In this document: positions 11,572-12,658 of the stretch, one piece after another
Layout of the letters: every line of letters begins with the position of its first letter
How positions within the stretch are numbered: position 1 is the stretch's first letter
NCBI RefSeq assembly: GCF_023256325.1
Contig: NZ_JAGDXI010000038.1
Span: 1-54,595 of the forward strand
From: Caldisphaera sp.
GTDB lineage: Archaea; Thermoproteota; Thermoprotei_A; Sulfolobales; Acidilobaceae
Reading direction: 5' to 3'
Length of the DNA: 54,595 nt
Notes under the pieces: generated by a model
What the model was told of the DNA's origin: nothing
Database searches by the model: none
The model's input: the letters and a program-made list of their open reading frames with translations, nothing else
Position numbers and translations under genes: made by a program

Positions 11572-12330
11572 TCATCTATTCTTTATAACTAGCCCTGTCA
11601 TAGATTTTGCTTCTTTTTCAAACTCATTCTTTTCCCATGGAAAAACTACCCATTTGTCTACTTCTTCAGCATAGAAATCTGGTACAAGTCTAGTCCAAGG
11701 CTTCATATATAATGTTGTGGTCTTTATTTCAGATGGCATGTAAAGAGAAATAGCTTGTATTGCAAATTCCAATGTTAGGCCTGAATCGCTTACATCGTCT
11801 ACCAATAAAACTTTTTTATCTTTTATAGGTAAAGTAACTGGTTGTCTCATATATGGTCTTTCTCCTTTCTGACCTGCAGCTATGTATAATTTTATTTCCA
11901 TTGAACCGATGTCATCAATACCTAACCTATCTGCTAGCAACCTTCCCGGGATTACTCCACCCCTTAAAATAGATATTATAACATCAGGCCTATATCCTGA
12001 TTTTAGTATCTTTTCTCCTATTACATTAATATCATTTTCTATATCTTCCCATGATAATAGCAGAACTTCTATTCCTCCATGGTTAACTGGCAAGATGTAG
12101 ATTTCTTTAGCTTCTTCTTCATCTTCTTTTATCCTATAATCAACCCCATCTACAAATACAACAAAACCTGATTTAGGGTTTCCATCAGGATCTATGGCTA
12201 TTGATAAATCTGGATATTTATTTATTAATTTTTTTAAAGCCTCTTTCCAAGAATTTGCATCTACTTCAATTGTTTCATTGCCATTGGCCTTATATTTTAA
12301 AGCAGCTAGAAGTTTAATTTTTATGCTCAA
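11572..12330 (-). CDS. Urm1/MoaD-like domain fused to a phosphoribosyltransferase
   Basis: 252 aa with two joined domains. Residues 1-86 are a ubiquitin-like beta-grasp of the MoaD/ThiS/Urm1 class (MSIKIKLLAALKYKANGNE ... YILPVNHGG) ending in an intact Gly85-Gly86. Residues 87-252 are a type I purine phosphoribosyltransferase with the PRPP loop LLVDDVSDSGLT and an N-terminal LRGGVIPGRLLAD. The transferase probably salvages a purine base. A Gly-Gly in mid-chain recalls ubiquitin-ribosomal protein fusions that a JAMM protease must cut. No start codon is visible at the junction, although GGAGG is. eS17 lies just upstream. Confidence 0.85.
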   Translation of the reverse strand: MSIKIKLLAALKYKANGNETIEVDANSWKEALKKLINKYPDLSIAIDPDGNPKSGFVVFVDGVDYRIKEDEEEAKEIYILPVNHGGIEVLLLSWEDIENDINVIGEKILKSGYRPDVIISILRGGVIPGRLLADRLGIDDIGSMEIKLYIAAGQKGERPYMRQPVTLPIKDKKVLLVDDVSDSGLTLEFAIQAISLYMPSEIKTTTLYMKPWTRLVPDFYAEEVDKWVVFPWEKNEFEKEAKSMTGLVIKNR

Positions 12331-12345
12331 AGTTAATCTCCCAGC

Positions 12346-12579
12346 TCATTGCTGGGCAGTGCCTGTATTTTCTTCTATAATCTTTTGTTTCTTTTTGCTT
12401 AACTTTACTAAACTAGTTATATAACCTGCTACCTGATTTCTTAATCTCTTCGATTTATAAGAAGTAATTTTTCCCACAACTTGTTTATTCATATTAAAGT
12501 CTTCTGTAAACAGATCTGGATGATCTCTTAACAGTTCTCTTGCGAGACGTTTTATCATTAAAGTCCTTACTTTGCCCAA
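12346..12579 (-). CDS. rps17e: Small ribosomal subunit protein eS17
   Basis: Archaeal/eukaryotic-specific 30S protein. The sequence GKVRTLMIKRLARELLRDHP and DFNMNKQVV match the family. The frame opens with ATG at 12588, but family members begin MGKVRT, so the TTG at 12579, which has GGTGG upstream, is the likely start, giving about 77 aa. The C-terminus is a basic Lys tail followed by EENTGTAQQ. The stop is 15 bases upstream of the Urm1-transferase fusion gene, so the two probably share a transcript. Confidence 0.93.
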   Translation of the reverse strand: MGKVRTLMIKRLARELLRDHPDLFTEDFNMNKQVVGKITSYKSKRLRNQVAGYITSLVKLSKKKQKIIEENTGTAQQ

Positions 12580-12658
12580 GCATTCCACCTGAATTATTCG
12601 TTAACGCTAGAGAATTTAAAGCTGATTTTAAAGTTTATTGCATCTTTTAGATTTAAGG

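Follow-up and report, generated by a model that had tools for sequence, protein, structure and literature searches.

In-frame fusion of a Urm1-type domain to a purine phosphoribosyltransferase in Caldisphaera sp. and its relatives: a probable precursor of a ubiquitin-like protein

Eukaryotic ubiquitin-ribosomal protein precursors consist of an N-terminal modifier, a Gly-Gly junction and an unrelated housekeeping protein as partner. In the Archaea, the ubiquitin-like (Ubl) protein Urm1 of Sulfolobus acidocaldarius is a characterised protein modifier, which is attached to lysines via G83-G84 following H82 (Anjum et al., 2015; PMC4569737). For Ubl-enzyme fusions, HvJAMM1 was found to cut SAMP1-MoaE precisely after the C-terminal residue, also in vivo, and archaeal Ubl-MoaE fusions appeared limited to the Crenarchaeota (PMC4443979). 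A natural MoaD-MoaE protein of Deinococcus is cleaved by its own JAMM protease (PMC8832034). In addition, a Ubl-Cgi121 fusion was described for all Thaumarchaeota then available, and a URM1-like family of the Sulfolobales was located near the S17 and thermosome genes (Makarova and Koonin, 2010; PMC2948915). Here, an open reading frame (ORF) of Caldisphaera sp. was analyzed in which a Urm1-type domain is joined to a phosphoribosyltransferase (PRT). It is located in a stretch of 54,595 nt (contig NZ_JAGDXI010000038.1, positions 1 to 54,595), in the following called the window. The ORF is best read as a linear precursor that would be cut after Gly86, probably by the JAMM protease of the genome; the probability of this reading is estimated at about 0.72.

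The fusion ORF spans positions 11572..12330 of the minus strand and encodes 252 amino acids, with a TTG start and the stop codon included. In the preliminary description of the window, one frame had been reported in which PVNHGG ends at residue 86 and is directly followed by IEVLLLSWED; this was confirmed, and the strand, which had been left unspecified, was found to be minus. The Urm1-type domain (residues 1-86; 12073..12330) ends in His-Gly-Gly (HGG; residues 84-86; 12073..12081), the proposed mature end of Urm1 with the cleavage site after Gly86. It is followed by a variable linker (residues 87-93; 12052..12072) and a purine PRT domain of the HGXPRT/GpT-2 type (residues 94-252; 11575..12051), all on the minus strand. 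Since the ORF continues for 166 residues past the Gly-Gly and does not end there, the claim concerns a Urm1 precursor and not a free Urm1.

The Urm1_like family of NCBIfam (NF053661) spans residues 5-86 with 37.4 bits, which is under its strict cut-off of 70, so that the assignment rests on more than this match. A profile of the domain identified the S. solfataricus Urm1 structure 4wwm in the PDB (7.7e-11). Because a Foldseek search with the full fusion gave solely PRT-type structures among the matches listed, the domain was modelled separately. The AlphaFold model of residues 1-86 alone had a predicted local distance difference test (pLDDT) value of 95.2 and matched structures of SAMP1, Urm1, MoaD and CysO, including 4wwm. 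Based on sequence and model, the N-terminal 86 residues are assigned to a Urm1-type beta-grasp domain with the Gly-Gly at its end, and they are predicted to be orthologous to the S. acidocaldarius Urm1 modifier (arCOG00540-like). The candidate Urm1 in genome G142 has a length of 84 amino acids and ends in H82-G83-G84, exactly as published for the S. acidocaldarius protein (Anjum et al., 2015).

For the second half, Pribosyltran (PF00156, Pfam) was found at residues 94-233 with 74.9 bits, which is over the cut-off. The closest solved relative is the S. solfataricus HGXPRT GpT-2 (PDB 4z1o at 7.3e-54; Foldseek 5bqo at 9.4e-20), the solved chain of which comprises 179 amino acids without a Urm1 domain. 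In the phosphoribosyl pyrophosphate (PRPP) loop region, V177, D178, D179, S181, D182 and G184 are invariant in the alignment A2. This half is thereby predicted, from sequence and model, to be a 6-oxopurine (hypoxanthine/guanine/xanthine) PRT. In the AlphaFold model of the full fusion, the junction belonged to the stretches of lowest certainty (mean pLDDT of 68 at residues 81-90), and the predicted template modelling score (pTM) of 0.67 leaves the relative placement of the two domains open.

The layout of the Caldisphaera fusion is the same as that of the ubiquitin-ribosomal protein precursors; the proteases differ, and the ribosomal protein gene S17e is adjacent here but not fused. Urm1 of S. 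acidocaldarius and S. solfataricus (Saci0669; PDB 4wwm) belongs to the same family and has the same S17e neighbourhood. Its gene ends at the Gly-Gly and the protein is free, whereas in Caldisphaera the enzyme follows in frame. With the Ubl-MoaE proteins (MoaD-MoaE, SAMP1-MoaE; HvJAMM1, DRJAMM) the fusion shares an N-terminal Ubl, an internal Gly-Gly, an enzyme as partner and a JAMM protease in the genome. In contrast to these, the Ubl is Urm1 and not MoaD, and the partner is a purine PRT (PF00156) and not MoaE, so that the gene does not belong to the MoaD-MoaE fusions; no role of Urm1 in PRT catalysis is known. The MoaD-MoaE of the window genome is a separate gene (L353). In the thaumarchaeal Ubl-Cgi121 proteins, the Ubl is joined to a subunit of KEOPS, the gene of which lies near S17; this is comparable to the Urm1-Cgi121 fusions found in this study. 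The partner differs from that in Caldisphaera, and in the accessible parts of the paper no processing was proposed for Ubl-Cgi121 (PMC2948915).

For the distribution of the fusion, 60 relatives were surveyed first, 36 of them from the family of the window (Acidilobaceae, f1; genomes, loci and families are numbered with G, L and f). Full-length fusions were read in 32 of these 36 genomes. In G026 the fusion was truncated at a contig end, in G027 a frame change separates its two parts, and for G005 and G021 a full-length match was not obtained. An order-wide search added four fusions (G061, G062, G064, G065), resulting in a total of 36 full-length sequences, from which G026 (contig end) and G005 and G021 (locus not found) were excluded. 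Because of these 32 sequences and the four additional ones, chance and assembly accident can be dismissed and the fusion is considered genuine. All 36 belong to the Acidilobaceae, and no fusion-sized frame with a PRT was found outside this family among the matches listed.

The HGG was kept in 36 of 36 Urm1-PRT fusions and is encoded by 12 different Gly-Gly codon pairs. It is invariant in the alignments A1 (41 rows) and A2 (32 rows). In A2, the top residue accounted on average for a fraction of 0.57 at residues 1-83, 1.0 in the HGG, 0.39 in the linker and 0.68 in the PRT. The distance between the Gly-Gly and the conserved PRT Trp ranges between 6 and 15 residues among the relatives, the linker being free in both sequence and length. 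Relatives with a lost Gly-Gly but a kept fusion, which the preliminary description had named as contrary evidence, were looked for and not found (0 of 36 Urm1-PRT and 0 of 5 Urm1-Cgi121 fusions). The conservation could also reflect a recent or slowly evolving fusion in which the HGG has no present use, as all Urm1-PRT fusions were found in one family. This is extremely improbable, since the fusions diverge down to 43% identity to the window protein and the amino acids remained unchanged across the 12 codon combinations. Furthermore, the domain could be a permanent tether or regulatory part of the enzyme, which is never cut and keeps the HGG for its fold or contacts. The fixation of the fusion in most of the Acidilobaceae (32 of 36 genomes) and the equally invariant His84 fit to this, but the unconstrained linker does not.

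The comparison of split and fused genes proposed earlier was carried out on these and more distant relatives: the genes are fused in the Acidilobaceae and separate both in other families of the order and in distant outgroups. In the six tandem loci of other families that were read first (G042, G044, G048, G052, G054, G058), Urm1 and PRT are adjacent separate genes and Urm1 stops exactly at the HGG. For the order-wide classification, 139 genomes with a completeness of at least 85% were used. Since PF02597 (ThiS) alone was too weak and missed the fused Urm1 in several genomes, Urm1 was searched with the own profile A1; its matches with a MoaD-like PPxxGG end in f7, f9 and G150 were counted as no clear Urm1. 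A PRT fusion was found in 26 genomes, a Cgi121 fusion in 5, a tail of 2-14 residues in 12, an exact stop at HGG in 55, a stop at HRG in 3 and no clear Urm1 in 38.

The order of S17e and urm1 is the same in L160, in many of the loci L191-L208 and in L323. The arrangement S17e-urm1-prt-cgi121-like of the separate genes was also observed in L323, which originates from an outgroup Marsarchaeota G1 genome, in which the genes are unfused and Urm1 stops at HGG. The same stop was found in another Thermoprotei metagenome-assembled genome (L327), with unfused urm1-prt followed by a similar ORF. Because the split operon occurs in outgroups, the Urm1-PRT fusion is derived from an ancestral split operon. 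In the +1 frame of the window ORF, GGA GGA is directly followed by TAG, which looks like the trace of a lost stop codon.

The same TAG could serve a +1 frameshift that yields free Urm1 from translation, and free PRT could arise by internal initiation, as the sequence of Gly-Gly codons can be similar to that of a ribosome-binding site. Both are very unlikely. Neither feature is conserved: 8 of 36 loci have a +1 stop directly after the Gly-Gly, and 17 of 36, to which the window does not belong, offer a start codon in frame ahead of the PRT Trp. The TAG of the window is better read as the remnant of the former stop.

Five genomes contain Urm1 in frame with a Cgi121-like domain, G039 (f5) and G104-G107 (f2), each with the HGG followed by the partner. 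The Pfam CGI-121 scores were 33.7 bits for G039 (over the cut-off) and 15 bits for G107 (below), while G104 had no match. A pooled alignment of the Cgi121-like sequences matched solved Cgi121 structures at about 4e-11; on their own, the small ORFs of the Sulfolobaceae matched no Cgi121 structure. Cgi121-like ORFs after urm1/prt were observed across the Thermoproteota (L203-L205, L160, L034-L038, L323, L327), and Cgi121 was placed as absent from the Sulfolobales and Desulfurococcales in the accessible parts of the 2010 paper (PMC2948915). As f5 and f2 also contain unfused members, parsimony points to at least three separate in-frame fusions, one in f1 with PRT and those in f5 and f2 with Cgi121. 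In two genomes of the window's own family (G027, L033; G063, L206) the fusion was split again: Urm1 ends with HGG and the four residues [V/M][F/L]GG before the stop, and the reading frame of the PRT, shifted by +1, overlaps with it.

Such changing partners and the renewed splitting, which leaves the HGG plus four residues, would be explained poorly by a fixed tether and well by a cleaved precursor. In f6, the stand-alone Urm1 ends in HRG in all three genomes (L209, L263, L264; G040, G095, G050), so that the Gly-Gly is dispensable for the persistence of the domain. A permanent tether is therefore considered unlikely. In the two f6 genomes tested, the matches of the E1-like enzyme were weak (82-88 bits), and together with the HRG end this perhaps indicates a lost pathway.

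Under the precursor reading, a JAMM/MPN+ metalloprotease, whose gene lies at another site of the genome, would cut after Gly86 and release the PRT with a short N-terminus, with both products being formed in equal amounts. The freed Urm1 would be activated by an E1-like enzyme and then act as protein modifier or sulfur carrier. A JAMM/MPN+ protein of approximately 128 amino acids with the E, HxH and S..D residues was identified in the window genome (contig C36:17076-17456; 166 bits). As PF14464 (Prok-JAB) alone was too weak and missed most JAMM proteins of the Sulfolobaceae, the same 139 genomes were searched with the own profile A3 (26 rows; E22, H80, H82, S90 and D93 invariant). A weak match in G122 was counted as no JAMM, whereas G063 and G084, with matches truncated at contig ends, were scored as JAMM-positive. 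MoaE frames of at least 215 amino acids were taken as MoaD-MoaE fusions, and their sequences were read for G000, G002, G003, G016, G022, G037, G040, G049, G051 and G059.

Of the 90 genomes in which some Ubl is extended, be it by a Urm1 fusion, a Urm1 tail or a MoaD-MoaE fusion, 80 contain JAMM, compared to 5 of the 49 remaining genomes. For the genomes with a Urm1 domain fusion the number was 30 of 31, the exception being G002. Among the genomes in which no extended Ubl other than Urm1 was found and MoaE is separate or absent (G032, G061, G039, G060, G096, G097, G099), JAMM was present in 7 of 7. Presence of an extension and of JAMM agreed in 124 of 139 genomes, compared to 109.6 on average and 120 at most in 20,000 shuffles of JAMM within families; Fisher values ignore kinship, which the shuffle corrects partly, and the counts overstate the independence of related genomes. 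A strict rule by which JAMM occurs in all genomes with an extended Ubl and in no others would be too strong, given the 10 extended genomes without and the 5 others with JAMM. In f3, Urm1 tails of 2 to 14 residues past the HGG were observed (L208, L201, L202, L211, L213, L215, L216), and the three f3 genomes that have such a tail and no MoaD-MoaE fusion still contain JAMM.

Several observations weigh against a cleaved precursor. G002, a draft genome with 92% completeness, carries both fusions and no detected JAMM. Nine genomes of f6 and f7 contain MoaD-MoaE without a detected JAMM, so that a Ubl fusion can persist without the protease, as would be expected for a tether. Conversely, G109, G110, G115 and G084 have JAMM and no extension was seen in them, and JAMM is likewise present in G005, for which no Urm1 locus was found. 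Most members of the Acidilobaceae also carry MoaD-MoaE, for which JAMM may be kept; just G032 and G061 isolate Urm1-PRT. The HGG, including the invariant His, could be conserved for the fold. Furthermore, the diglycine of SAMP1 was described as not required for the cleavage of linear fusions by HvJAMM1 (PMC8832034); unlike this statement, in vivo cleavage without the SAMP1 diglycine was not detected in PMC4443979.

The preliminary suggestion that the fusion may be a precursor is nevertheless well supported by the comparison, namely by the invariant HGG next to a free linker, relatives stopping at HGG, two different partners and the co-occurrence with JAMM; the cleavage itself is what we infer from it. 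As a broader and more tentative model, held with slightly less than even confidence, crenarchaeal Urm1 may be treated like eukaryotic ubiquitin. It would have been joined repeatedly to the next gene of its operon (PRT or Cgi121) or given a short tail, with the JAMM maturase being kept as long as anything follows the Gly-Gly. Through processing, the supply of the modifier would then be coupled to the salvage of purines or to the t6A modification of tRNA.

For the activation of a freed Urm1, an E1-like protein (PF00899) was identified in the window genome (contig C2:95990-96691; 212 bits). Matches were found in 59 of the 60 relatives and were over the Pfam cut-off in 57. Besides MoaD-MoaE, the window genome contains a short Ubl with a GGG end (L142) and, next to an oxidoreductase-like gene, two MoaD-like ORFs (L141). 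The two adjacent ORFs of L141 (1443-2043, minus strand) differ in that one continues past its GGG (GGGIFIQ) and the other has no Gly-Gly. Since other Ubl candidates are thus available for cofactor or tRNA sulfur transfer, a role as protein modifier is considered more probable for Urm1, by analogy to S. acidocaldarius. The argument that Aeropyrum has no free Ubl, so that its fusion must be cut, was dropped: G016 has a weak frame of 83 amino acids (16.3 bits) besides two fusions, and a short free Ubl lies beside a thiolation-type enzyme in G032 (L148).

The uncut fusion could also act as a built-in degradation signal: Urm1 would direct the enzyme to the proteasome, and the enzyme would be spared wherever JAMM cuts the fusion. 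When Urm1 was fused N-terminally to GFP or FBP in S. acidocaldarius, the fusions were targeted to the 20S proteasome, but the GFP and FBP parts accumulated as intermediates (PMC4569737). A degradation signal would leave the stand-alone Urm1 proteins stopping exactly at HGG unexplained, and it is compatible with a processed precursor and not exclusive of it. As a separate explanation it is regarded as quite improbable.

The statement of the preliminary description that no system of this kind had been described was too strong. JAMM-cleaved Ubl-MoaE (PMC4443979; PMC8832034), Ubl-Cgi121 (PMC2948915) and the free Urm1 modifier (PMC4569737) are known. The PRT as partner, the pattern of JAMM retention and the changing partners appear to be new. 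A literature search for a Urm1/MoaD-PRT fusion gave no report, which is weak evidence of novelty since most subscription papers were outside its coverage; the word phosphoribosyltransferase is absent from the accessible parts of PMC2948915 and PMC1779556. The fusion would provide a natural and testable case of the processing of an archaeal modifier precursor outside molybdopterin synthesis and, if true, extend the logic of ubiquitin precursors to Urm1. The archaeal JAMM would gain a predicted second substrate, for which the genomes without extended Ubls other than Urm1 offer clean test systems.

Upstream of the fusion gene and in the same direction, the gene of the ribosomal protein S17e (PF00833, 58.4 bits) is located at 12346..12588 on the minus strand. 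S17e is a conserved neighbour of urm1, and the distance between its stop codon and the TTG of the fusion is 15 nt. One old gene cluster thereby ties together Urm1, a purine salvage enzyme, a KEOPS subunit and S17e. A GGGAG motif at 12338..12342 (minus strand), 7 nt before the TTG, is a possible ribosome-binding site of the fusion gene. In the family of the window, a small Cys-containing ORF of the IVCGKKF...FHSSKC type was observed beside MoaD-MoaE (L149, L156, L351, L353, L355), and a similar small ORF adjoins Urm1(-Cgi121) in f5 (L153, L195).
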